64,000 bases of DNA from an uncultured Pelagibacteraceae bacterium (GTDB lineage: Bacteria; Pseudomonadota; Alphaproteobacteria; Pelagibacterales; Pelagibacteraceae), in assembly GCA_902562645.1 (NCBI GenBank), contig CACETY010000001.1, forward strand, positions 62,001 through 126,000, read 5' to 3'. Position 1 is the first letter of the stretch. Every line of letters begins with the position of its first letter. Positions 1,602-16,530 of this stretch are shown piece after piece. Made by a program: the position numbers and the translations under genes. A model generated the notes under the pieces. That model was not told the DNA's origin and ran no database searches. It saw only the letters and a list, made by a program, of their open reading frames with translations.

Positions 1602-2568
1602 AAACTTTGAAATAGACAAATTTAACAAATCTAATTCTAATTTACATTTAATTTATGGTATCAATGAAGGTATTAAACAAGATTTAATAAATAATATTTA
1701 TTTAAAAGGTTTTGAAGGTGATATTTTTAACTATGAGGAGCATGAAATTTTAAATAATATTGATCAGTTTATTTCAAATTTATTAACAAAGTCATTGTTT
1801 AGTAATAAAAAAATAATCATTATTTCAAGAGCTACAGATAAACTATACTCTTTAATAAATGATTTGTTGGATAGGGAAATAGTTGAGACAAAAATTATCA
1901 TCAAATCATCAAGTCTAGAAAAGAAATCAAAACTCAGAAATTTATTTGAAAAAGAAGACCAATTAATTTGCACACCTGTTTATGAAGATGACACGAGAGC
2001 ATTAAATTTAGTTATTCAGAATTTTTTGAAAATAAATAACTTAAGTTTATCACAAGAGATCAAAAACATCCTCATAGAAAGATCAAAGGGAGATAGGATT
2101 AACTTAAAAAATGAATTATCTAAATTAAAAAATTTGTCATTAAGTAAAAGCAAAATAAGTGTAGAGGATGTAAATAAACTCTCAAACCTTGCAGAAAATT
2201 ATAGTGTGTTTGAGTTATCGGATAACTATTTAGCCAAAAATTCTAAAAAAGTATCAAACATCCTTAATGAGAATAATTATTCATCTGAAGACTGTATTCT
2301 AATCATAAGAACAATATTAAATAAATCTAAAAGGCTTTTAAAAATACGAAATGAAGTTGATAACAATAATAATATTGATCAAGCAATTTCTAGCTTTAAA
2401 CCTCCTATATTTTGGAAAGAAAAAGATATTGTAAAAAAACAAGTTCAAGCGTGGTCAACTAATGAAGTAAAAGGAATTATATTTAAAATCAATGACTTGG
2501 AGGCTTTAGTTAAGAAAAATAACTCAAATTCAATACTTTTTGTTTCTAATTTTGTAAGTAATTATTAA
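1591..2568 (+). CDS. holA: DNA polymerase III delta subunit
   Basis: A clamp-loader subunit that opens the beta sliding clamp during replication. At 325 residues it has normal HolA length. It starts with a Rossmann-like N-terminal segment (LHLIYGINEGIKQDLIN, matching the 'Y-G-x-E' entry of the family) and continues with helical domains. Position right after leuS-lptE is classical. Its TAA stop shares the palindrome TTAA (2565-2568) with the stop of the convergent parB, so no separate terminator fits between them. Sequence conservation is low, as usual for delta subunits, and the call depends partly on context. Confidence 0.88.
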   Translation: MIIKNFEIDKFNKSNSNLHLIYGINEGIKQDLINNIYLKGFEGDIFNYEEHEILNNIDQFISNLLTKSLFSNKKIIIISRATDKLYSLINDLLDREIVETKIIIKSSSLEKKSKLRNLFEKEDQLICTPVYEDDTRALNLVIQNFLKINNLSLSQEIKNILIERSKGDRINLKNELSKLKNLSLSKSKISVEDVNKLSNLAENYSVFELSDNYLAKNSKKVSNILNENNYSSEDCILIIRTILNKSKRLLKIRNEVDNNNNIDQAISSFKPPIFWKEKDIVKKQVQAWSTNEVKGIIFKINDLEALVKKNNSNSILFVSNFVSNY

Positions 2569-3416
2569 TAATTTTCCTTAATGATCGCTACCAATCTATC
2601 GAGCTGATCTGCACCTTTATACTCTAGGCTAATAATTCCAGAATTATTTCTCTTATTTTTAACAAAAACTCTCATTCCAATTTTATCTGTTAACTCCTCT
2701 TCAAGACTAACAATATTTGGATCTTTTTTCTTTGAGGTACTATTAGAACTAGATTTCAAAATTTTTACTAAATTTTCAGTTTGTCTAACTGATAGTTTTT
2801 TTGAAATAATTTTCTTTGCTAAAAGTATTGCATTGTCTAATCCTACTAAAATTTTTGCATGTCCTTGGGTTATTTTTTCATCAACTATTAATTCTATAAT
2901 TTCTTGTGGAAGAGATAAAAGTCGTAAACAATTTGAAATATGAGCTCTACTCTTTCCTATAAATTTAGAAACTTTATCCTGATCGTAACTAAATTCATCA
3001 ATTAATCTTTTATAACCTTCTGCTTCCTCGATTGGATTTAAATCTTTTCTTTGAACATTTTCGACAATTGCAAATTCTAATGATTTAAGATTATCTGCAT
3101 TAATTACAATTACCGGGACTTCATGAAGCCCTGCATATTGGGCTGCCTGCCACCTTCTTTCTCCAGCTATTATTTCAAATTTACCCTCTTCATTTGAAGA
3201 AGGTCTTACAATAATAGGTTGGATAATCCCTCGCTCTCTTATAGAGTTAGTTAATTCCTCTAAACTAACCTCATCAAATTTTTTTCTAGGTTGATACTTG
3301 TTTCTAATTAAAGAACTTATTGAGATATTTTTTTTGTTATCAATTTGTTCACTATCCCCTATTAAGGAAGATAGCCCTCTTCCGAGTCCTTTTTTTGATT
3401 TAAACGGATTAATCAT
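2565..3416 (-). CDS. parB: Chromosome-partitioning protein ParB
   Basis: A CTPase and DNA-binding protein that loads at parS and spreads to form the origin-proximal partition complex. The N-terminus (GLGRGLSSLIGD) is the usual ParA-interacting tail. CTP-binding motifs follow: GERRW at residues 85-89 and ENVQRKDLNP at 119-128. The helix-turn-helix lies at about 148-168 (SKFIGKSRAHISNCLRLL), then TQGHAK. At 283 residues the length is normal. It overlaps parA by 4 bases in the mnmG-rsmG-parA-parB leftward operon. Two matching parS sites are present a little upstream, inside rsmG and mnmG. Confidence 0.97.
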   Translation of the reverse strand: MINPFKSKKGLGRGLSSLIGDSEQIDNKKNISISSLIRNKYQPRKKFDEVSLEELTNSIRERGIIQPIIVRPSSNEEGKFEIIAGERRWQAAQYAGLHEVPVIVINADNLKSLEFAIVENVQRKDLNPIEEAEGYKRLIDEFSYDQDKVSKFIGKSRAHISNCLRLLSLPQEIIELIVDEKITQGHAKILVGLDNAILLAKKIISKKLSVRQTENLVKILKSSSNSTSKKKDPNIVSLEEELTDKIGMRVFVKNKRNNSGIISLEYKGADQLDRLVAIIKENY

Positions 3417-4213
3417 GCTGCACTCTCCACTTGTTTATCTTGGTTTAAAAATTCTTCTGTAAAACTAAAATAAGCTTTACTGCCTGGACAAGTTTTATCA
3501 TAAATGAGAACTGGAACGCCATGAGAGGGCGCCTCTGATAGTCTAACATTTCTTGGCACAGCAGTACTGTAAACTTTATCTTTAAAATAGTTTCTTGCTT
3601 CTGTTTCTACCTCACCTGATAATTTATTTCTCTTATCATACATAGTCAGAAGTATTCCTCTTATGTCTAAAGATGGATTTAAGTTTGACTTTATCCTCTC
3701 AATTGTTTTCATGAGTTGAGTGAGACCCTCTAAAGCAAAAAATTCGGTCTGAAGTGGTACCACTAGTGCATTGGAGGCTACCAATGCCATGATTGTAAGT
3801 AGGCTTAAAGACGGAGGGCAATCAATTATGATATAGTCATATAATGGCTCAGAATTGTTTAAAATCAAGGTTAATTCTTCTTTTAATTTAAAGGCTCGAC
3901 GACTATCACCTGCTGTCTCAACCTCAAGTCCAGACAAATCAACATTTGAAGATATCAAATCTAAATTTCTAAAGCTTGTAGACTGGATTACCTCTGAAAT
4001 TTTTCTATTTCCATTCAATACATTGTAAATTGTTTGATCAGAACTTGTGGTATTGGATAATCCAAGACCAGTTGTAGCATTACCTTGTGGATCAAGATCA
4101 ATTATAAGAATTTTTTTTCCCTTCATCGACAAACCCGCAGCAAGATTGATTACAGTGGTGGTCTTGCCTACTCCTCCTTTTTGGTTTATGACCGAAACAA
4201 CTTTCTTATTCAT
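3413..4213 (-). CDS. parA: Chromosome-partitioning ATPase ParA
   Basis: A Walker-type ATPase that moves ParB-parS complexes. It has the deviant Walker A box KGGVGKTT (residues 12-19) and LIDLDPQGNATTGLG (about 38-52), followed by the typical DYIIIDCPPSLSLLT segment. Length is 266 residues, as expected for the chromosomal (Soj-type) ParA without an N-terminal helix-turn-helix domain. It is the third gene of the mnmG-rsmG-parA-parB operon, with 4-base overlaps to both neighbours, so stoichiometry is probably set by translational coupling. Confidence 0.97.
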   Translation of the reverse strand: MNKKVVSVINQKGGVGKTTTVINLAAGLSMKGKKILIIDLDPQGNATTGLGLSNTTSSDQTIYNVLNGNRKISEVIQSTSFRNLDLISSNVDLSGLEVETAGDSRRAFKLKEELTLILNNSEPLYDYIIIDCPPSLSLLTIMALVASNALVVPLQTEFFALEGLTQLMKTIERIKSNLNPSLDIRGILLTMYDKRNKLSGEVETEARNYFKDKVYSTAVPRNVRLSEAPSHGVPVLIYDKTCPGSKAYFSFTEEFLNQDKQVESAA

Positions 4214-4851
4214 ATTTTTTTTTTTAAATTTGAAATTTTTACTACTGTTGACTCTTCACTTGTAAGACTTTTCATTTCCTCTAAGTCAAATTTCCATTTT
4301 GTGGAGACATCTTTTAAAATTTTTTTTCTGCTTTTTCCTAAATACATGATTATGTATTTAAAATTTTTAAAATTTTTTGTTGCTATATCAAAAATCACTG
4401 GCATAGGTTTGAATGCTCGACAAATTATTACATCTGTCACTAAATTTTTTTCTTCAAATATATTTTTTTGATAAATTTTTGCTTCCAATTTAAATTTTTT
4501 TACCATCTCTAATAAAAAATTGCTTTTATGATAACTCTTTTCATAAAAAATTAGCTTAAAACCTTGTTTTTTTGATTTCATCAAAATACCTAAAACTATA
4601 CTAGGGAGCCCTGCACCAGAGCCAAGATCAGTGCATACACTTATGTCTTTTTTATCAATAAAATCAATAGTTTGTGCACTATCATAAATATGCCTTGTAT
4701 TTATTGACTTTTCTGTGCTTGAGCTTATCAAATTTATTTTCTTGTTTGTGCTCAAAATTGATTTTGAATAGTCCTCTAACTCCTTAAGTGTTTCACGTGA
4801 AACATTTTTGAGGAGTGTTTTATCTGTTTTTATTATTTTCGAATCAATCAA
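4210..4851 (-). CDS. rsmG: 16S rRNA (guanine-N7) methyltransferase RsmG (GidB)
   Basis: Methylates N7 of a conserved guanine in 16S rRNA (G527 in E. coli numbering) using SAM. At 213 residues it has normal length. [10 protein letters not shown] (51-60) and the SAM-binding loop GSGAGLP (77-83) match the family. The start overlaps the mnmG stop by 4 bases. A perfect parS palindrome (4789-4804) is written into the codons for residues N16-T21, so this gene also serves as a chromosome-partition site. Confidence 0.96.
4789..4804. promoter_or_regulatory. parS centromere site 1 (perfect 16-bp match)
   Basis: The sequence TGTTTCACGTGAAACA is an exact match to the bacterial parS consensus and a perfect palindrome. 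It lies inside rsmG, encoding V-S-R-E-T, and about 8 kb left of the oriC candidate. parB and parA are within 2.3 kb. ParB should bind and load here. Confidence 0.95.
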
Positions 4852-6719
4852 GCTATATGCTTAATAGACCTTCTTTTGACATGAGACAACAAAATATATA
4901 CTGCTGCTGGAGTTATTCCATCTATTCTGAGTGCTTGGCCAAGTGTTTTTGGCTTTATTTCCTTAAATTTTGACTTAACTTCATTTGATAATCCAGAGAA
5001 TTGATCGTAATCTAAGTTTTCAGGTATTTTTAAATTTTCATCTCTTTTAAATGCTAAAATGTCTGCATCTTGTTTCTTCAAATATCCTTTATAGTGAGCT
5101 TTTATCTCAATTTGCTCATCAATTTCACGTGAAACATATTTAATTTCAGGCCAAATTTCCCTAATTTTACTCATATTTACTGACTTTTGGCTGAGTATTT
5201 CCATTGCACTCCTTTTAACCCCGTCCTTAGCAATATTAATACCAAATTTAGATACTTTTGAGGGTGAAATTAATGATTTTTCCATATTTTTAATACTTTT
5301 TTCCAATTTAGAAGCTTTCTCTTTATATATAATTTTCCGCTTATTTAATATTAAACCAATATCAATTCCTTTTTGTGTAAGTCTTATATCTGCATTATCA
5401 GATCTCAAAGATAGCCTGTATTCTGCCCTTGAGGTAAACATTCTATAGGGCTCTGCAACTCCTTTTGTAACTAAATCATCTATCATAACACCTATGTATG
5501 CCTCAGATCTATCAAGTATAAATGGTTCTTTACCTTTAATAGAGAGAGCAGCATTTATTCCAGCTATCAATCCTTGTGCCGCAGCTTCTTCATAACCTGT
5601 TGTTCCATTTATTTGTCCTGCGAGGTAAAGATTTTTAATTTTTTTTGTCTCTAAAGTAAGAAATAGCTCCCTTGGGTCCACAAAATCATATTCAATTGCG
5701 TATCCAGGCCTTAAAATTTTAACTTTTTCTAAACCGTTGATATTATTGCATATTTCTTGCTGTATTTCAGCAGGTAGGGAAGTTGAGATTCCATTAGGAT
5801 AGATTGTTTTATCATTTAGACCTTCTGGCTCTAAAAATATTTGATGTTTTTGCTTATCAGCAAACTTTACAATTTTATCTTCTATGGAAGGACAATATCT
5901 AGGGCCAACACCTTGGATACTTCCTGAGTACATAGCACTACTTTTAATGTTTTTAGATATGATCTCATGAACTGCTCGATTAGTATATGTCATCCTACAT
6001 GAAATTTGTCTGTTTATATTTTTTTTTGTAAGGAAAGAAAAAAAATATGGATCTTCATCTGCGTGCTGCTCTTCGAGTTTTTCGAAATTAATCGTCGTTG
6101 CATCCAATCTTGGTGGTGTTCCTGTTTTTAATCTTCCAATTTTAAAATCGTATTTTTCTAATTGTTCACTTAAACCTGTTGAAGGTTTTTCATTAAATCT
6201 TCCTGCAGGTGTTTTTTCTTTACCAATGTGAATTAAACCATTTAAAAAAGTTCCAGTTGTTAGGATTACTTTAGATGATAGTACTTTTTTACCTTCTTGT
6301 GTGATAAAACCGATTATATTGTTTTTTTCGAAAATGAACTCTATTACAGGATCAGAAAAAATGCTTAAATTACAGTAGTTTATAAGTTTTTCTTGCATGT
6401 ATTTCTTATATAATGATCTATCACTTTGAGTTCGTGGTCCGCGCACAGCAGGGCCTCTGCTTCTATTTAATAATCGAAATTGTATTCCTGATTTATCTGC
6501 AACTTCACCCATCACACCGTCAAGTGCATCTATCTCTCTGACAAGATGACCTTTGCCTAATCCCCCTATTGCTGGATTGCATGACATCTCACCAATAGTA
6601 TTAAATCTATGTGTAAATAAGGCAGTATTTACGCCTAATCTAGCAGATGCTGCAGCAGCTTCACAGCCAGCATGACCTCCTCCGACTACGACTACATCAA
6701 ATGACAACTCATTTTTCAT
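4848..6719 (-). CDS. mnmG: tRNA uridine 5-carboxymethylaminomethyl modification enzyme MnmG (GidA)
   Basis: FAD-dependent partner of MnmE; together they install the cmnm5 group at wobble U34 of certain tRNAs. The protein has 623 residues. The FAD dinucleotide fold is at the N-terminus ([13 protein letters not shown], residues 10-22). [19 protein letters not shown] and [19 protein letters not shown] are signature blocks, and a helical C-terminal domain follows. It is the first gene of the mnmG-rsmG-parA-parB operon, transcribed away from the oriC candidate. A second parS-like site (5121-5136) is embedded in codons for V-S-R-E near the 3' third. Confidence 0.98.
5121..5136. promoter_or_regulatory. 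parS-like site 2 (14 of 16 positions)
   Basis: AATTTCACGTGAAACA keeps the palindromic core TTTCACGTGAAA and differs from the parS consensus only at the first two bases. It lies inside mnmG, about 330 bases from site 1, and again the core encodes V-S-R-E. Two close sites beside parAB make chance occurrence unlikely. Whether ParB tolerates the changed flank is not known from sequence. Confidence 0.8.
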
Positions 6720-6795: not shown

Positions 6796-8127
6796 TTATT
6801 TACCTATACAAAAATCACTAAAAATGGATCCTAATATTTCTTCAACATCTACTTTTCCAACAATCATACCTAAATGTCTGGTTGCCAATCTTAAATCCTC
6901 TGCAGCTTTATCAAAGTCTTCCTGGGAGTTTTTTTCCTCAAAATTTTTTAAATTCTGAAGACAAGCCTCTAAACTTTGTCTATGTCTTTCTCTGGTAATT
7001 AAAGTTTCGCTTGAGCTTACAAATTTATTTTTTAATTTGTCTTTTATTCTTTTTATTAATTCATCTAAGTTAGTTTCATTTTTAATTGATAAAAAAATTG
7101 GATTAAATTTTTCAATTTGTTGATTGATATTATTGTAACCAAGATCTATTTTATTTATCACAATTATTGATTTTTCACTCACTAAATCGTTCAAAAATCC
7201 AGTAAAATCAACACTCTTTGGCTCTATTACTATAATATTAAGATCAGCATCATCTGCACGTTTGAGGGCTAATCTAATTCCTTTTTTTTCTATCTCATCT
7301 TGAGACTCTCTTATCCCTGCAGTATCTGAAATCACAACAGGATAACCATCTAAGTTCAAATGAGCTTCGATAACATCTCTAGTTGTTCCTGCAATTTCTG
7401 AGACGATAGCTACATCGCGGTTCGATAAATAATTCAATAAAGAGGATTTTCCTGCATTGGTAGGTCCAAGAATTGCAATCTTAAAACCCTCTCTAATTCT
7501 TTCTCCAACCTTTTGATCATCTAAAATTTTTTCAATTTCATTTATTATTTTTTCAGAATCATTTTTTATATTTTTAATCACATCATCTGGAAGATCCTCT
7601 TCTGGAAAATCAATTTTAGCTTCAATGTATGATAAAATTTTTAAAAGTTTTTCTCTTAATAAATTAAATTTTTTAGAACTTCTTCCACTCATTATTTTTA
7701 TGGCTTGTTGTCTTTGGATTTCTGTTTCAGCAGAAATTAAATCTGAAATACTTTCTGCTTTTAAGAGGTTTATTTTTTTATTTTGAAATGCTATTTTTGT
7801 AAATTCTCCAGGTTCAGCTAAACGACAATCTTCAAATTTTGATAATTGATCTAATATTGATCTTACAACAGCAATGCTTCCATGCACATGTATTTCGGCC
7901 ATATCATCGCCTGTGTAGCTCTCTGGGGCTGGAAACCACAATAATAAGCCTTCATCTATCAGCCCAGAATTGTCAATTTTATTGAATTTTTTAAAAGTTG
8001 CTACTCTAGGAGGTGGCATTTCCCCGTTTATAAGATTTAGTATAATTTTTTTTGTATTAGTTCCAGATATACGAACAACTGCTATACCTGAAACTCCGGG
8101 ACCTGATGAAAGCGCATATATATTCAT
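6796..8127 (-). CDS. mnmE: tRNA modification GTPase MnmE (TrmE)
   Basis: A potassium-activated GTPase that works with MnmG on wobble uridines. The N-terminal tetrahydrofolate-binding domain includes DDMAEIHVHG (74-83) and RLAEPGEFTKIAF. A G domain is inserted in the helical region: G1 GPTNAGKSS (221-229), AGTTRD (246-251), G3 DTAG (268-271) and G4 NKID (325-328). The protein ends in FCIGK, the C-terminal C-[ILV]-G-K motif with the essential cysteine. It has 443 residues, full length. The 76 bases to mnmG show nothing striking beyond AT-rich sequence. Confidence 0.98.
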   Translation of the reverse strand: MNIYALSSGPGVSGIAVVRISGTNTKKIILNLINGEMPPPRVATFKKFNKIDNSGLIDEGLLLWFPAPESYTGDDMAEIHVHGSIAVVRSILDQLSKFEDCRLAEPGEFTKIAFQNKKINLLKAESISDLISAETEIQRQQAIKIMSGRSSKKFNLLREKLLKILSYIEAKIDFPEEDLPDDVIKNIKNDSEKIINEIEKILDDQKVGERIREGFKIAILGPTNAGKSSLLNYLSNRDVAIVSEIAGTTRDVIEAHLNLDGYPVVISDTAGIRESQDEIEKKGIRLALKRADDADLNIIVIEPKSVDFTGFLNDLVSEKSIIVINKIDLGYNNINQQIEKFNPIFLSIKNETNLDELIKRIKDKLKNKFVSSSETLITRERHRQSLEACLQNLKNFEEKNSQEDFDKAAEDLRLATRHLGMIVGKVDVEEILGSIFSDFCIGK

Positions 8128-8172: not shown

Positions 8173-9033
8173 ATGATTATATGGTTAGCATCTTATCCTA
8201 AAAGTGGAAATACGTGGCTAAGATCTTTTATAGCTTCTTTATTATTTAAAAAAACTGCTACTCTGAGTTTAAAAAGTTTATCAAACATACCTCAGTTTCC
8301 ACTTAGATCTCATTTTGACAACTTAGTTAACAAACATGAAATTGATGATTTAAATAAAGTGTCTTCCTATTGGATTAAATCTCAACAAATAATTAATTTA
8401 GACAAGAAGGTAAAATTTTTTAAAACACATCATGCTTTATGTAAGATTAAAGGGTCAATTTTTACAAACTATGAAAATTCGTTAGGGGTGATTTATATTG
8501 TTAGAGATCCTAGAAATGTTATTTCATCAATTAAATATCATTTTTCAAAAGAAAATTACACTGAAGCAAAAAATTTTTTATTTAATGAAAATAAATGTTT
8601 AGGTAAGAAGTTTGATGAAAATTCTAAAGATAAAAATAGAGATATGCTAACCGTAATAGCATCATGGAAGACACATTATAATTCATGGAAAAATTTTAAA
8701 AAAAATTATCTTTTGATAAAATATGAAGATTTAGTTTCTAATCCTCATGAAGAATTTACAAAAATTGCGGAATATTTATCAGAATTAATAAAAATAAAGA
8801 TAGAAGATGGTAAGATATTGATGGCAATTAAGAATAATAATTTTGAAAATTTAAAAAAAATTGAAAATAAAGATGGCTTTGTAGAAGCAGCAAACGATAA
8901 AAATACAGGTAAAACAAAAAGTTTTTTTAACTTAGGTCCTAACAATAAATGGCAGGAAAAATTAGATATTGAAATTAGGCAAAGTATTGAGGAAAAATTT
9001 GAAATTGAAATGAAAGAATTAGGTTATTTATAA
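8173..9033 (+). CDS. PAPS-dependent sulfotransferase
   Basis: A 286-residue single-domain sulfotransferase. It carries the 5'-phosphosulfate loop YPKSGNTW (residues 8-15) and the 3'-phosphate-binding segment RDPRNVISS (111-119), which bind the sulfate donor PAPS. It begins almost at the N-terminus with the first beta strand (MIIWLASYPKSG), so no signal peptide or TPR domain is present. The acceptor is unknown. The gene is transcribed opposite to mnmE and rho, and ends one base before the rho stop. It interrupts the otherwise leftward origin-linked block, so it may be a later insertion; base composition looks like its neighbours. Confidence 0.88.
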   Translation: MIIWLASYPKSGNTWLRSFIASLLFKKTATLSLKSLSNIPQFPLRSHFDNLVNKHEIDDLNKVSSYWIKSQQIINLDKKVKFFKTHHALCKIKGSIFTNYENSLGVIYIVRDPRNVISSIKYHFSKENYTEAKNFLFNENKCLGKKFDENSKDKNRDMLTVIASWKTHYNSWKNFKKNYLLIKYEDLVSNPHEEFTKIAEYLSELIKIKIEDGKILMAIKNNNFENLKKIENKDGFVEAANDKNTGKTKSFFNLGPNNKWQEKLDIEIRQSIEEKFEIEMKELGYL

Positions 9034-10801: not shown

Positions 10802-11794
10802 TTATAAATTTTTTAAAATAAGATGTTTAAATAAATTTATATGATCCTCATTATCATTTAGGCATGGAATCATCTCAAAATTTTCTCCACCAGATTTAAT
10901 AAAACTTTCTTTTCCTTGAATTGATATTTCCTCTAAAGTTTCTACACAATCTGATGAAAATCCAGGACAAATAACTAGTATATTTTTTTTACCTTCTTTA
11001 GGTAAAGCCTCGAAAGTTTTGTCGGTATAGGGCTGCAACCATTCCTGAGGGCCAAATCTTGATTGAAATGTCGTCATAATATTAATATCTGTATATTTTT
11101 CAGAAATCAATCTAGTAGTTTTATGACAATAGCAATGATAAGGATCTCCTTTGTCAAAATATTTCTTAGGAATCCCATGGTATGATGCAATAATTAAATC
11201 AGGCTGCCAATTAATTTCACCAATTTTTTTAACAATACTGTTTTTGATTGCCTCAATATAAAGAGGTTCAGACTCGTAATGAGGTATTATTTTAAGATTT
11301 GGTTGCCATCTCATTTTCATTAAAGTTCTGTAAACCTCATCACAAACTGTTGCTGTAGTTGCTGCTGCATATTGCGGATACAAGGGAAGCACTATTAAAT
11401 TTTCACAACCTTTTTTTTGAAGACCATGAATTTTGCTTTTAATACTTGGATTTCCATACCTCATAGCAAAATCAACAATTAAATTTTCGTTGCCTATTTG
11501 TTTAGATAATTTTTCTGATTGGCTTTCAGTAAAATATCTTAAAGGAGACATGTTTTTATCTTCCATCCATATTTCTTTATAAGCTTTTGCTGTTTTTGAA
11601 GGTCTAAAAGTAAGTATGAATAAATTAAGTATTACCTGCCAAATTAAAGGATTTACCTCAATTACTCGTCTGTCTGACAAAAATTCCTTTAAATATTTTC
11701 TAATATCTAACCAATTTGTTGAGTCAGGCGTACCAAGATTAACAATTAAAATGCCTGTCTTGCCATAATTAACTTTTGGGTGGTTTGGTGTCAT
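10802..11794 (-). CDS. hemH: Ferrochelatase
   Basis: Inserts Fe2+ into protoporphyrin IX. It has 330 residues. N-terminal GILIVNLGTPDS matches the family start, IIASYHGIP carries the active-site histidine, and FSSDCVETLEEI contains the C-terminal active-site glutamate. It overlaps the upstream hemE by 4 bases and precedes hemJ, so the genes are in the order hemE-hemH-hemJ on the minus strand. Confidence 0.98.
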   Translation of the reverse strand: MTPNHPKVNYGKTGILIVNLGTPDSTNWLDIRKYLKEFLSDRRVIEVNPLIWQVILNLFILTFRPSKTAKAYKEIWMEDKNMSPLRYFTESQSEKLSKQIGNENLIVDFAMRYGNPSIKSKIHGLQKKGCENLIVLPLYPQYAAATTATVCDEVYRTLMKMRWQPNLKIIPHYESEPLYIEAIKNSIVKKIGEINWQPDLIIASYHGIPKKYFDKGDPYHCYCHKTTRLISEKYTDINIMTTFQSRFGPQEWLQPYTDKTFEALPKEGKKNILVICPGFSSDCVETLEEISIQGKESFIKSGGENFEMIPCLNDNEDHINLFKHLILKNL

Positions 11795-12792
11795 TTAAAA
11801 TTTCTTACAATATCTATTAATTCCTCAACCATTTCAATTTTAGTTTCAGGAAGTATTCCATGGCCTAAATTAAAAACGTATGGATGGTCTTTAAAAATAC
11901 TAAGATATTTTTCAACTTCTGTTCTAAGGGTTTTTTGATCTGTTAGCAAAATTTTTGGATCAAGACCACCCTGTATTGGTATTTTTATCTCATTTACTAT
12001 TTTCTTTGGGTCTACATCGTAATCTATATTTACAGCATCTGGTTTAACAATATCACAGAAATTTTTATAATCTTTAATACCTCTAGGAAAACAGATAACA
12101 GGAACTCCTAGTTCTTTAACATATTCGACAATATTTAAAGTAGGTATATAAATATATTCTGGAATTTTATCTTTTAATAACCCAGCCCAACTGTCAAAAA
12201 TTTGAATAATTTGAGCGCCAGCTTCAACTTGATTTTTGATGTGAAGTCTTAAAAACTTTTCTATTATTCCTAATAATCTGTTTATTAAAAATTCATCTTT
12301 AAAAAAATCAGTAGACAAACCTTTTTTGGGAGAAGATCTATTAATCATGTAAACTAGAATAGTCCAAGGTGCTCCAACAAATCCAATTGTATCCTTATTA
12401 TTCATTAAAGTGTCTTTTGAAGTTTTTGAAATTGCTTTATATACCTTGTAAACTTTTTCAGTAAAATTTACTTCGTCAACATTTTTTATTGTTTCTAAAT
12501 TTATTTCTCCTAATTTAGGTCCAAAGTTTTTTTCAAATTCTACTTTTTGACCAAGTCCATAAGGTAACATCAAAATATCTGAAAAAATTACAGCTCCATC
12601 GAACCCAAATCTTTTAATAGGTTGAAGAGTAATTTGAGATGCTAAATCACTATTCAGACAAAGTTTTATAAAATCTGGGTTTTCTTTCCTAATTTCTCTA
12701 AACTCTGGCAAGTACCTTCCAGCCTGTCTCATTAACCATATAGGATTATTTTTAGTATCCTGATTTTTAATGCAGTTAGTTATGGGGTTCAT
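11791..12792 (-). CDS. hemE: Uroporphyrinogen decarboxylase
   Basis: Converts uroporphyrinogen III to coproporphyrinogen III. It has 333 residues. The signature PIWLMRQAGRYLPEFREIR is near the N-terminus, with FSDILMLPYGLG and a C-terminal FNLGHGILPET. It is the first gene of hemE-hemH-hemJ and begins at the edge of the oriC candidate, reading away from it. hemE next to oriC is the established Caulobacter/Rickettsia arrangement. Confidence 0.98.
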   Translation of the reverse strand: MNPITNCIKNQDTKNNPIWLMRQAGRYLPEFREIRKENPDFIKLCLNSDLASQITLQPIKRFGFDGAVIFSDILMLPYGLGQKVEFEKNFGPKLGEINLETIKNVDEVNFTEKVYKVYKAISKTSKDTLMNNKDTIGFVGAPWTILVYMINRSSPKKGLSTDFFKDEFLINRLLGIIEKFLRLHIKNQVEAGAQIIQIFDSWAGLLKDKIPEYIYIPTLNIVEYVKELGVPVICFPRGIKDYKNFCDIVKPDAVNIDYDVDPKKIVNEIKIPIQGGLDPKILLTDQKTLRTEVEKYLSIFKDHPYVFNLGHGILPETKIEMVEELIDIVRNFK

Positions 12793-12833
12793 ATAAATAG
12801 ATATATATTAATTACTTTATTAGTATTATGAAT

Positions 12834-12842
12834 TGTGAATAA
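12834..12842 (-). promoter_or_regulatory. DnaA box, exact consensus match
   Basis: TGTGAATAA, read on the minus strand as TTATTCACA, fits TTATNCACA at all positions. It lies 42 bases upstream of hemE inside the oriC candidate. Confidence 0.75.
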
Positions 12843-12877
12843 CGTAAATTAGTCAATTTCCACAATTAATTAACTTG

Positions 12878-12886
12878 TTATCAACA
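12878..12886 (+). promoter_or_regulatory. DnaA box, one mismatch
   Basis: TTATCAACA differs from TTATCCACA at one position. It lies 36 bases right of the exact box and in the opposite orientation. Confidence 0.55.
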
Positions 12887-13060
12887 TCTTTGAACTTAAA
12901 TTAGTTACATTTTTCAATGATTTATCTAATTTTATCACATTCTAGTGTTATTATGTATAAGTATAATCACAATTTATAACTCATCTAATCAAATAAAAAA
13001 AAATCTAACAACTATCATTTTAATTAATAAATCTACATTTTTCTTATTTTACTTATAGTT

Positions 13061-13069
13061 TATAAACAT
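13061..13069 (+). promoter_or_regulatory. DnaA box, one mismatch, next to ppsR start
   Basis: TTATAAACA differs from TTATNCACA at one position. It is 8 bases before the ppsR ATG, so bound DnaA could also affect that gene. In DNA this AT-rich the match could be chance. Confidence 0.35.
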
Positions 13070-13076
13070 CTTATAC

Positions 13077-13904
13077 ATGAGAAACTTATACCAAATTTAT
13101 TTGATATCAGATTCAACTGGTGAAACTCTCGATAGAATTTTTTTAGCTTTAAAAGCTCAATTTCCTAATTTTGAATATGAAACAAACCATTTCTCTTTTA
13201 CAAGGACTGAGAGTCAGACTTTAAGCATTTTAAAACAAGCAAAAAAAGATAAGAATTCAATAATTTTATACACCATAGTTAACAGTAAGCTCGCAAAATA
13301 TCTTACTGAGAAAGCTTATGAAAGAGATATACCCTGTTTTGGAGTACTTGGTGAATTAATTCTAAATTTTTCCAAAGTTTTAAACCAAAAAGCTTCTCAT
13401 CAACCTAGTGGACAACATATTCTTAATGAAGAATATTATGATAGAATTGAAGCTATACAATTTACCATGAACCATGATGATGGTAATCAAACGGAAGATA
13501 TTGAGAAATCAGATATTATACTGCTTGGTGTAAGCAGGACAAGCAAAACACCAACTTCTATCTATTTAGCTAATAGAGGTTTTAAGACATCAAATATTCC
13601 ATTAGTTAATATAAATTCTTTACCAGCTAAAGTTACTGACAAAAATTTTTCACCATGTGTAGTTGGTTTAGTTACAGAAGCAGAGAGATTATATGACTTA
13701 AGAAAAAACAGATTAACCTCTCTTAAAGAGGATCAGAATAGCGAGTATGTAAATATTGATAAAATTAGGGATGAATTAAACAGTGCTCGAAAGATTTTTA
13801 AAGAAAATAATTGGCCTACAATAGATGTAACAAGAAAATCAGTAGAAGAAACAGCGGCCTCAGTAATAAAAATCTATGAGATAAAAAATAAAAAAAATGC
13901 TTGA
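13077..13904 (+). CDS. ppsR: PEP synthase / pyruvate phosphate dikinase regulatory protein (DUF299 kinase-phosphorylase)
   Basis: A bifunctional enzyme family that switches PEP synthase or pyruvate phosphate dikinase off by ADP-dependent threonine phosphorylation and on again by phosphate-dependent dephosphorylation. At 275 residues it matches the family. It opens with YLISDSTGETLDRI and has the nucleotide-binding segment GVSRTSKTPTSIYLANRG near residue 150. It is the first gene rightward of the oriC candidate and the counterpart of the Rickettsia/Caulobacter gene beside oriC. It overlaps maf by 8 bases. Which target it regulates here cannot be told from this window. Confidence 0.93.
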   Translation: MRNLYQIYLISDSTGETLDRIFLALKAQFPNFEYETNHFSFTRTESQTLSILKQAKKDKNSIILYTIVNSKLAKYLTEKAYERDIPCFGVLGELILNFSKVLNQKASHQPSGQHILNEEYYDRIEAIQFTMNHDDGNQTEDIEKSDIILLGVSRTSKTPTSIYLANRGFKTSNIPLVNINSLPAKVTDKNFSPCVVGLVTEAERLYDLRKNRLTSLKEDQNSEYVNIDKIRDELNSARKIFKENNWPTIDVTRKSVEETAASVIKIYEIKNKKNA

Positions 13905-14481
13905 TATTATTTTAGCGTCTAAAAGTAAGGTTAGAAAACAAATATTGGATAGTTACGACATAAAAACTAATGTTGAAGTTTCCAATGTAGACGAAGAACC
14001 AATCAAAGAAAGTATGTTGAAAGAGGGTGCTTCGCCTGAAATTATTTCCAAAAATCTTGCTGAGCTAAAGGCTAATAAAGTTAGTCTAAAAATAAATAAT
14101 TGCTTAGTTTTGGGAGCAGATAGTGTAATTGATTTATCAGGTGAGCTCATATCAAAGCCAGAAAGTAGGGATGAAGCACTTGAAATTTTAAAGAAACTCA
14201 ATGGAAAAAAACACTCTTTAATAAGTTCAGTATGCATATCTAAAAATGGTTCTATGATTTGGAATTATACTGATAAAGCTTACTTGACTATGAAGCATTT
14301 TTCAGAAAATGAACTGATTACCTACTTAAATAAAATTAGTGATGAGGCTTTGTATGCTTATAATGTTTATCAAATTGAAGGAGAAGGAAGAGCTTTATTT
14401 TCAAAAATTGATGGCGATGAAGACACGATAATGGGCTTACCTATTAAACAAATTAAGGAATATTTGGAACTACAAAAATGA
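13897..14481 (+). CDS. maf: Maf-like nucleotide pyrophosphatase
   Basis: A house-cleaning nucleotide pyrophosphatase (dTTP/UTP or m7GTP type) that removes non-canonical nucleotides and is linked to septum control. It has 194 residues. The N-terminal LASKSKVRKQIL is the diverged Maf signature (S-x-S-x-R-R), and VLGADSVI is the active-site segment. It overlaps both ppsR (8 bases) and aroE (4 bases), giving the conserved ppsR-maf-aroE-coaE-dnaQ string. Confidence 0.94.
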   Translation: MLDIILASKSKVRKQILDSYDIKTNVEVSNVDEEPIKESMLKEGASPEIISKNLAELKANKVSLKINNCLVLGADSVIDLSGELISKPESRDEALEILKKLNGKKHSLISSVCISKNGSMIWNYTDKAYLTMKHFSENELITYLNKISDEALYAYNVYQIEGEGRALFSKIDGDEDTIMGLPIKQIKEYLELQK

Positions 14482-15272
14482 AAAAATTTTTAGTAATAGG
14501 GAACCCAATTGAACATTCTTTATCTCCAAAGCTACATAACTATTGGATAAAAAGAAATAATTTAAATGCAATTTATGCAAAATTGGAAGCTCATGAAAAT
14601 GATTTATCTGAACTATGTCAATCCATGAAAAAAGGAGATTTGGATGGTTTGAATATTACTGTTCCTTTTAAAAAATTAATAATTCCTCATTTAGATATTT
14701 TAAGTGGCAATGCAATAAAAACACAATCTGTAAATACTATTTCAATACTTAAAGGAAATTTAGTTGGAGATAATACCGATATTGATGGATTTGAATTAAG
14801 CATAAGAAAATTAAAATATGATGTTAGTGAAAAAACAGTTCTGATATTAGGAGCTGGTGGTGTTGTACCATCAATAATCTTTTCGCTCCTAAGAATGAAG
14901 GTATCAAAAATATTTTTAAGTAATAGAACGAAAGAGAAAGCAAATAATTTAAAAGAATTTTTCAAAGAGATTAATGTTGTAGACTGGGGAGATTTACCTG
15001 ATTTTGATATGATTATTAATGCCACAACTATAGGTCTTAATAAAAAGGATAAGTTTGGAATAGACTTTTCTAAAACTGGCCAAAACAAGTTTTTTTATGA
15101 TGTAATATATGATCCATATCAAACAGAATTCTTAGATGCAGGAAGTGCAAAAGGTAACATAATAGAAAATGGTTTGAATATGTTTTTATTTCAGGGACAG
15201 CAAGCCTTTAATATCTGGCATAAAGTTGAACCAGAAATAAATGAAGAATTACTTAAATTTTTAAAAAATTAA
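14478..15272 (+). CDS. aroE: Shikimate dehydrogenase
   Basis: NADPH-dependent reduction of 3-dehydroshikimate in aromatic amino-acid synthesis. It has 264 residues. The substrate-binding motifs are NPIEHSLSPKLHNYW at the N-terminus and LDGLNITVPFK near residue 60. The nucleotide-binding loop is ILGAGGVVPSI. The ATG overlaps the maf stop, and a 24-base gap precedes coaE. Confidence 0.97.
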   Translation: MKKFLVIGNPIEHSLSPKLHNYWIKRNNLNAIYAKLEAHENDLSELCQSMKKGDLDGLNITVPFKKLIIPHLDILSGNAIKTQSVNTISILKGNLVGDNTDIDGFELSIRKLKYDVSEKTVLILGAGGVVPSIIFSLLRMKVSKIFLSNRTKEKANNLKEFFKEINVVDWGDLPDFDMIINATTIGLNKKDKFGIDFSKTGQNKFFYDVIYDPYQTEFLDAGSAKGNIIENGLNMFLFQGQQAFNIWHKVEPEINEELLKFLKN

Positions 15273-15296
15273 AAAATATGAAATCTAAAATTAAAC

Positions 15297-15890
15297 ATGA
15301 TTAGAATCGCAGTAATTGGAGGGATTGGTTCAGGAAAATCTTTTATTTCAAAACTTTTTAGTTACCCAGTTTTCAATGCAGATAATGAAGTTAAATATAT
15401 TTATAAAAAAAATAAAACCTGCTTTAATCAAATGAAAAAAAAATTACCTAAATTTATTAAAACATTTCCTATCCAAAAAAAAGAACTCATATCAGCAATT
15501 AACTCAAATAAAAAAAATCTTAAAATAATTTCTAAAATTGTTCATCCTTTGGTCAGAAAAAAAATGACAAAATTTATAAATAAAAACAAAAAATCTAGAA
15601 TGATTATCTTTGATATTCCCTTATTTATTGAAAATAAGCTCAATAAAAAAGAAGATGTAATAATTTTTGTTAATTCTAAAACTTCAAAAGTATTAGAAAG
15701 GTTAAAAAAAAGGCCTAACTTCAATAAAAAATTGATTAAAAGTCTAAAAGAAAGTCAGTTTATCTTATCTAAAAAAAGAAGATTATCTGATTATGTTATT
15801 AACAATAATTTTTCTGCAGATGTAATGAAAAAAAAAGTTAAACTAATTAAGAAAAAAATTCTAAATGAAAGAAATAGTTCTAGATACTGA
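15297..15890 (+). CDS. coaE: Dephospho-CoA kinase
   Basis: Last step of CoA synthesis: phosphorylates dephospho-CoA. It has 197 residues with the P-loop GGIGSGKS (residues 8-15). FNADNEV stands where the family has the D-A-D substrate motif, so that motif is diverged. VIFDIPLFIENK is the second conserved block. It is very Lys-rich, reflecting strong AT bias. The 3' end overlaps dnaQ by 26 bases. Confidence 0.94.
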   Translation: MIRIAVIGGIGSGKSFISKLFSYPVFNADNEVKYIYKKNKTCFNQMKKKLPKFIKTFPIQKKELISAINSNKKNLKIISKIVHPLVRKKMTKFINKNKKSRMIIFDIPLFIENKLNKKEDVIIFVNSKTSKVLERLKKRPNFNKKLIKSLKESQFILSKKRRLSDYVINNNFSADVMKKKVKLIKKKILNERNSSRY

Positions 15891-16530
15891 GACAACTGGA
15901 TTATCAGTTAGAGACGGTCATCGTATAGTTGAAATTGGATGTATTGAACTAGATAATTTAATACCAACTAAAAATATTTTTCATATTTATTTAAATCCTG
16001 AGAGAAAAGTATCACAGAAAGCCTTTGAGGTTCATGGATATTCTGATGAGTTTTTATCAACAAAAAAAAAATTTGCTGAAATTGCAGATGAATTCTTAGA
16101 CTTTATAAGAGACAAAAAAATTATCATTCATAACGCTGAGTTTGACATAGGACATTTAAATAATGAACTATCATTAATTGGAAAAAAAAAAATAAGTAAT
16201 TCTAATGTTATTGATACACTGGAATTAGCAAGAAATAAATTTCCAGGTTCTGGTATAAGTCTAGATGCATTATGTAAAAGGTTCAGAATTGATAATTCAA
16301 AAAGAGAAAAACATACTGCTTTGATAGACTGTGATTTACTCGCAAAAGTTTATATAAATTTAATCGATCAAAAAGAACCAACTTTAAATTTAGTGGAGAG
16401 TAATGAAAACAGTATTTCAGAGAGCAAAAATGATTTAGAATATTATAAGAAAGTTATTGTTCCAAGCAAGGATGAATTGTCAAAACATAACGAATTTTTA
16501 AAAAAGTATTTAAAAAAAAATTATTTTTAA
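15865..16530 (+). CDS. dnaQ: DNA polymerase III epsilon subunit (proofreading 3'-5' exonuclease)
   Basis: DEDD-type exonuclease that proofreads replication. Exo I is LDTETTG (residues 6-12), Exo II is IIHNAEFDIGHLN, and Exo III is KREKHTALIDCDLLA with the H-x4-D pair (DEDDh class). It has 221 residues including a C-terminal tail for binding the alpha subunit. It closes the origin-proximal ppsR-maf-aroE-coaE-dnaQ operon. Its stop shares TTAA with that of the convergent secB. Confidence 0.96.
   Translation: MKEIVLDTETTGLSVRDGHRIVEIGCIELDNLIPTKNIFHIYLNPERKVSQKAFEVHGYSDEFLSTKKKFAEIADEFLDFIRDKKIIIHNAEFDIGHLNNELSLIGKKKISNSNVIDTLELARNKFPGSGISLDALCKRFRIDNSKREKHTALIDCDLLAKVYINLIDQKEPTLNLVESNENSISESKNDLEYYKKVIVPSKDELSKHNEFLKKYLKKNYF

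Follow-up and report, generated by a model that had tools for sequence, protein, structure and literature searches.

In the 64,000-nucleotide stretch of DNA analysed here (hereafter, the window), which comes from a SAR11 bacterium of the family Pelagibacteraceae, hemE and a ppsR-type gene are transcribed away from each other on either side of a gap of 284 bp with a GC content of 17.6%. The gap is delimited by the start codons of these two genes, that of hemE at 12790-12792 on the minus strand and that of ppsR at 13077 on the plus strand (Table 1). An earlier note on this DNA had described it as the largest non-coding gap, very AT-rich and with genes leading away from it for several kilobases, and all three points hold. 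When ORFs of at least 60 aa are counted as genes, it ranks first among the 44 gaps of the window (median 25 bp), followed by one of 262 bp (cut at the window end) and one of 200 bp (which contains the tRNA). To the right, everything from 13077 to 16530 lies on the plus strand, and a minus-strand ORF comes next; to the left, everything from 12792 to 9034 lies on the minus strand, as do the ORFs beyond a single plus-strand one (8173-9033), down to 2565. This lone ORF, sulfotransferase-like by eye, is inserted among the minus-strand genes between mnmE and rho.

Family models identify hemE, hemH, hemJ, rho, mnmE and mnmG leftward of the gap, and ppsR, maf, aroE and coaE rightward of it; by eye, we could add a dnaQ-like ORF on the right and, beyond mnmG on the left, rsmG-, parA- and parB-like ORFs. 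The rsmG-like ORF (again named by eye) contains an exact match to what we take to be the parS consensus, and a second site of this type, with two mismatches, is found at 5121-5136 (at least two sites with up to three mismatches were present in 6 of 100 shuffles). The further gene order around the Caulobacter origin (Cori) and the presence of parABS in its vicinity are also shared. The dnaA gene is located on the same contig, about 65 kb from the gap on the hemE side, and is adjoined by a dnaN-like ORF; the DnaA protein is encoded in this genome (TIGR00362, 482.8 bits), which consists of 38 contigs totalling 1.216 Mb and is 86.9% complete.

According to PMC1914354, the origin of Caulobacter is located between hemE and the COG1806 gene, as is that of Rickettsia prowazekii, which agrees with what the earlier note had stated. 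The window's gap, between hemE and ppsR/COG1806, has the same location, with a conserved flanking order, and resembles the Cori of Caulobacter crescentus in its flanking genes, its AT-richness and the presence of several DnaA sites (PMC1914354). Together with the parS site, the skew and strand switch of its relatives and the conserved boxes described below, this neighbourhood supports the proposal of the earlier note that the gap is a replication origin, and we consider it very probable that positions 12793-13076 are the chromosomal origin of this bacterium, which would work through DnaA.

Table 1. Features of the hemE-ppsR gap and its surroundings (window positions)
Feature	Positions	Strand	Basis or remark
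Putative oriC, whole gap	12793-13076		largest gap, GC 0.176
hemE, left neighbour	11791-12792	-	TIGR01464, 312.4 bits
ppsR-type gene (PPDK/PEP synthase regulator), right neighbour	13077-13904	+	NF003742, 299.4 bits
parB-like and parA-like ORFs	2565-4213	-	named by eye
Exact parS-type palindrome TGTTTCACGTGAAACA	4789-4804	+	inside rsmG-like ORF, 8 kb from gap
Predicted DNA unwinding element, least stable 50 bp of gap	12791-12840		nearest-neighbour energy -47.4
DnaA-trio-like triplets TAT TAG TAT TAT	12818-12829	+	read off the sequence; phase in relatives
DnaA box R1, TTATTCACA, exact	12834-12842	-	4 bases from triplets
Conserved block CGTAAATTA	12843-12851		alignment columns
DnaA box-like ATTTCCACA, 2 mismatches	12856-12864	+	consensus match and relatives
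DnaA box-like TAATTAACT, weak, 11-bp register	12867-12875	+	alignment; relatives
DnaA box-like TTATCAACA, 1 mismatch	12878-12886	+	consensus match and relatives
DnaA box-like TTATACATA, 1 mismatch, mid-gap	12952-12960	-	consensus match
Right-end DnaA box-like TTATAAACA, 1 mismatch	13060-13068	+	conserved position
Second right-end site TTATACATG, 2 mismatches	13071-13079	+	overlaps ppsR start codon

GC skew and gene strand in relatives

The cumulative GC skew, which the earlier note had proposed as a check, was computed in four single-contig relatives sampled in 20-kb pieces (one of 15 kb), with 40 pieces each for G043 and G003 and 20 each for G009 and G005. Its minimum is found, in record coordinates, at +33, +9, +7 and -17 kb from ppsR in G043, G003, G009 and G005, respectively, hence not far off; since the pieces are up to 72 kb apart, the resolution is in the order of tens of kilobases and offsets of 7-33 kb are indistinguishable from zero. 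The effect of sampling is visible in G003, whose minimum was 148 kb off with 20 pieces and 9 kb off with 40. In G043, the running sum hardly varies between about 600 and 640 kb, with -2360 at ppsR versus -2467 at the minimum near 636.5 kb. The skew maximum is located at 0.49-0.51 of the genome from ppsR in the four relatives. The gene strand switches in the same region, with minima at -6, -34, +14 and -21 kb from ppsR (same order), so that skew minimum and strand switch both fall within 34 kb of this gene in all four, and the leading strand carries 64-67% of the coding sequence (P <= 0.0054, shuffled pieces).

ppsR being on the minus strand in G043, G003 and G009, all four skew minima fall, once turned to the window's orientation, on the hemE side, which is also the dnaA side. 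One could thus imagine that the true origin is nearby but elsewhere, for example towards dnaA, and that the gap serves as a site of DnaA titration or segregation. The offsets in question are those that the sampling is too coarse to resolve, the gene-strand minima fall on both sides of ppsR whichever orientation is used, the running G-C sum of the window alone is lowest at 13405, and known alphaproteobacterial origins sit in the hemE-COG1806 gap, at least those treated in PMC1914354; we therefore regard this displacement as highly unlikely.

Replication-strand mutation bias was also considered as independent proof of the origin and dropped, as the fits at fourfold sites gave it no support. When gene strand was included in the fit, the term for the leading strand came to -0.043 (t -4.1) and -0.032 (t -2.7) in the two relatives from the window's genus and was non-significant in the two other genera (G005 and G009); nor did the best single step fall consistently close to ppsR, lying 420 kb from it in G005. 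The raw skew is thus mostly a gene-strand signal, yet it places the switch near the gap. As a side observation, the leading strand of G043 and G003 is slightly C-rich at fourfold sites, the opposite of the usual bias.

DnaA boxes in the gap and in its relatives

Compared with TTATNCACA, the gap contains one exact DnaA box on the minus strand (R1), as the earlier note had reported, and three sites with a single mismatch, one more than it had counted. The gap thereby holds four sites with no more than one mismatch, where the window averages 0.33 per 284 bp and 2000 dinucleotide-shuffled versions of the gap average 0.89 (P = 0.013 for four); this enrichment is by itself modest, so that the weight is carried by the relatives. 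In 36 gaps less than 70% identical (L123, whose genome is shared with L016, being left out of the count), box-like sites average 8.86 per gap versus 3.23 in shuffles; all 36 gaps have at least one, and many sites are found at fixed distances from ppsR. Of the 36, 30 have a plus-strand site that precedes ppsR by 17 or 14 bp (versus 1.4% of mononucleotide shuffles), and 28 have a minus-strand site at the R1 position, 219-247 bp before ppsR (versus 15% of shuffles). Box-like sites are thus conserved in related genomes, whereas a lack of conservation had been named beforehand as what would speak against an origin. The suggestion that origin recognition may be minimal fared less well: consensus boxes are indeed few, but the many box-like sites at fixed positions make the origin look compact rather than minimal.

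Between R1 and the plus-strand sites, the conserved block at 12843-12851 could, as a guess, be a weak DnaA site, and the site at 12867-12875 scores in the window below the box-like cut-off applied across relatives. The sites in the middle of the gap are irregular from one relative to another; a profile built on them was set aside, the window fitting it poorly (score -20). At the right end, a box abuts the start of ppsR, and the conservation of the last site (13071-13079) is partly that of the ATG itself.

A trio-like left end

The left end of the gap presents, in this order, DnaA-trio-like triplets, the inverted box R1 and plus-strand box-like 9-mers at an 11-bp pitch; in the window it reads TAT TAG TAT TAT (12818-12829), GAAT, TGTGAATAA. 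The DnaA-trio has been defined by a DnaA box, a spacer and triplets (PMC8287927), and the window has four triplets 4 bases from R1, where at least three in-phase NAN triplets at most 16 bp from a DnaA box are called for. We aligned on R1 62 sequences, 50 of them non-redundant gaps of the window's genus and 12 from other genera; the counts that follow lean towards the pattern, since the alignment omits L115, L117, L119 and L128, which fitted poorly, as well as L016, L025 and L029. T occupies residues 3, 6, 9 and 12 in at least 90% of these sequences. In-phase runs of at least three TAN triplets are present in 40 of the 62 (3.2% of mononucleotide shuffles) and runs of four in 30 (0.3% of shuffles), while runs of at least three of the less specific NAN are present in 44 (21% of shuffles).

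By nearest-neighbour energy, the weakest 50 bp of the gap (12791-12840) belong to the least stable 0.1% of 50-bp segments in the window, whose overall minimum of stability is at 8116. Unwinding of the DNA would thus be predicted to start at the hemE end.

Conservation of the gap as a unit

The 187 distinct gap sequences (the window included, from 194 of 200 loci) measure 260-294 bp, with a median of 283; these lengths leave out L088, L104 and L244 (contig ends) and L112, L113 and L125 (no hemE). In 125 of 130 loci, hemE and ppsR face each other across 261-294 bp (5th-95th percentile 267-286), the other five being two loci cut by contig ends and three of the genus g9 without hemE. A left-end matrix scores 72.4 at the window's gap and -11.7 at the runner-up in the window, this matrix and the left-end profile having both been built with the window's own sequence included. 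The profile, which uses sequence only, was run on 23 genomes (150 first-look candidates scored per genome), and 12 of them have a single match at E<=1e-5, each located in the hemE-ppsR gap (best matches 2.7e-15 to 8.2e-6); 10 of these 12 had contributed to the profile, and G003 and G063 had not, though near relatives of theirs had. The next match (7.6e-4, in G018) is inside that genome's own gap, on the opposite strand. The other 11 genomes, including those of another family of the order and of genera g2, g4 and g9, have no match at 1e-5 (the gap of G009 itself gives E 0.26).

The gap also persists where its neighbours change. In genus g9, hemE is absent from the 3.3-kb loci (3 of 3), and in one member (G009) a rho-like ORF, named by eye, stands opposite ppsR across 353 bp; a minus-strand box is still found 226 bp from ppsR in two of the three loci, L125 being the exception, and all three have sites at 14 and 2 bp from ppsR. 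Conversely, ppsR was not found in any of 18 genomes of another family of the order (G392-G409), where the six genomes examined have a maf-like ORF opposite hemE, 271-281 bp away. In three of these six (L320, L322 and L323), TAG repeats are clearly seen by eye ahead of a TGT- box; the remaining three have looser triplets, and in L323 TTATAAACA is present 17 bp before maf. Since the gap is kept without hemE in one case and without ppsR in the other, it seems to belong to the origin rather than to either gene.

These data bear on a simpler explanation, namely that the gap is the shared promoter region of hemE and ppsR, its box-like 9-mers being parts of AT-rich promoters, and that no origin is present. 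A divergent gene pair indeed requires promoters, the stretch is AT-rich, and TATAAA at 13061-13066 could serve as the -10 element of an almost leaderless ppsR. Promoters leave unexplained, however, the narrow length range of the 187 distinct gaps, the strand switch, the in-phase triplets and the persistence of the gap beside other neighbours; furthermore, the variants of the right-end site (TTATTAACA, TTATCAACA, TTATACACA) are those expected of a DnaA box and not of TATAAT. We consider it extremely unlikely that the gap contains promoters and no origin; promoters may be present in it too, which is compatible with an origin.

Putative regulators of initiation

The origin of Caulobacter being gated by CtrA, the plus-strand sites at an 11-bp pitch could be read as CtrA sites (TTAA-N7-TTAA) of an origin controlled in the same way. 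In some relatives (L018, L083 and L091 for example, by eye), adjacent TTAACA boxes at this pitch do spell TTAA-N7-TTAA, and three OmpR-type DNA-binding domains are matched in the window's genome. The window itself, on the other hand, reads TTAA-N7-TCAA, and none of the 58 genomes of the family passes the cut-off of the CtrA model (350 bits; best score 148 bits), a model that is positive in one of 14 control genomes (presumably Caulobacter) and gives 410 bits for a Caulobacter CtrA sequence. In the window's genome (86.9% complete, as mentioned), the protein that matches this model best looks like PhoB by its score (333.7 bits). As the model carries a Rhodobacterales label, a diverged CtrA could score below the cut-off. 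With no protein above it, gating of the Caulobacter type becomes less likely, and we rejected it as the leading reading, finding it very unlikely; the identification of the gap as an origin is unaffected. Among the OmpR-type proteins of this genome, we noticed one regulator (L133:1492-2091, minus strand) that the models match mainly in its DNA-binding half.

GcrA was found in 56 of the 58 family genomes, with a model whose controls were positive in Caulobacter and, oddly, in Sulfolobus, and a CcrM homologue is present in SAR11 (PMC3973325). GANTC is absent from the window's gap and occurs four times in 50 gaps, versus 8.4 +- 2.6 in shuffles; this deficit is weak, and control through GANTC within the gap was set aside. 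A single IHF consensus has no match in the window's gap, a search that degenerate sites would escape.

A putative mechanism and its known counterparts

We infer that DnaA would bind the inverted box R1 and the plus-strand sites at an 11-bp pitch (12856, 12867 and 12878), and that a DnaA oligomer would extend from R1 onto the trio-like triplets. Next, the AT-rich DNA adjoining the start of hemE (about 12791-12840) would melt, and the helicase would be loaded there, while the boxes of the middle and of the right end, up to the ppsR start, would probably recruit or position further DnaA. The element is of an ordinary kind, found where it would be expected and supported by good evidence: an alphaproteobacterial oriC that is compact, rigid in length and apparently CtrA-free.

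The left half of E. coli oriC has an inverted R1 beside AT-rich DNA, followed by close-packed weaker sites, and the window's gap resembles it in these three respects; it differs from E. coli oriC in the lack of an IHF match, a separate right-end box and a total size of about 280 bp in SAR11. Compared with Caulobacter, there is no CtrA candidate in the 58 relatives and neither IHF consensus nor GANTC in the window's gap, whose boxes are closer to TTATTAACA than to the G-box TGATCCACA (PMC4285127). The predicted origins of Rickettsia and Wolbachia are alike in their hemE neighbour, their AT-rich gap and their few consensus boxes; they are given with predicted CtrA and IHF sites, however, and the R. 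prowazekii and C. crescentus origins, at more than 400 bp, and those of Wolbachia, at 402-404 bp, exceed the 284 bp of the window's gap (PMC1914354). With the basal unwinding system, as outlined in PMC8287927, the gap shares the box, the spacer and at least three triplets with a middle A, and genomes from the other family carry TAGTAGTAG at the triplet position. It departs from this system by a spacer of 4 bases instead of a peak at 10-13, by the absence of a GC-rich spacer, and by TAT/TAG triplets instead of mainly TAG (PMC8287927).

SAR11 bacteria occur in very large numbers in the sea and are difficult to manipulate. Among the freely accessible papers listed in our searches, none maps a SAR11 origin in its title or in the beginning of its abstract. 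A Pelagibacter ori has been placed by a GC-skew script (PMC9516812), and a script of this kind was also run in PMC6018831. The details reported here, i.e. the rigid length, the trio-like left end and the lack of a CtrA candidate, were not found described in the literature searched. A mapped SAR11 origin gives an anchor for growth-rate estimates from read depth and a guide for oriC plasmids. Moreover, the 187 distinct origins of the same layout, from a lineage where no protein reaches the CtrA cut-off in 58 genomes and GcrA is nearly universal, form a natural series with which the spacings and sites required by DnaA could be tested, and their near-constant length and layout map how an origin may be opened.

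Spacing between the two ends

The distance from R1 to ppsR was measured in 168 gaps attributed to the window's genus (by similarity rather than by genus label in the case of the 80 loci kept out of 545). It falls into three classes, 220-221 (11 gaps), 228-232 (25 gaps) and 237-246 (132 gaps), and none of the 168 gaps has a distance of 222-227 or 233-236. On a tree of 165 gaps (three of the 168 having been dropped), the class changed seven times. Tentatively, and with rather more doubt than conviction, we propose that SAR11 origins follow a two-ended DnaA design of fixed size that dispenses with CtrA and whose spacing from the unwinding end to ppsR shifts mainly by whole helical turns; given a main class 10 bp wide and the small number of events, helical phasing is no more than a lead that the distances suggest. 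Whole-turn changes of spacing are tolerated in E. coli, a result cited in PMC4285127, and the steps of about one and two turns seen in SAR11 recall this tolerance.
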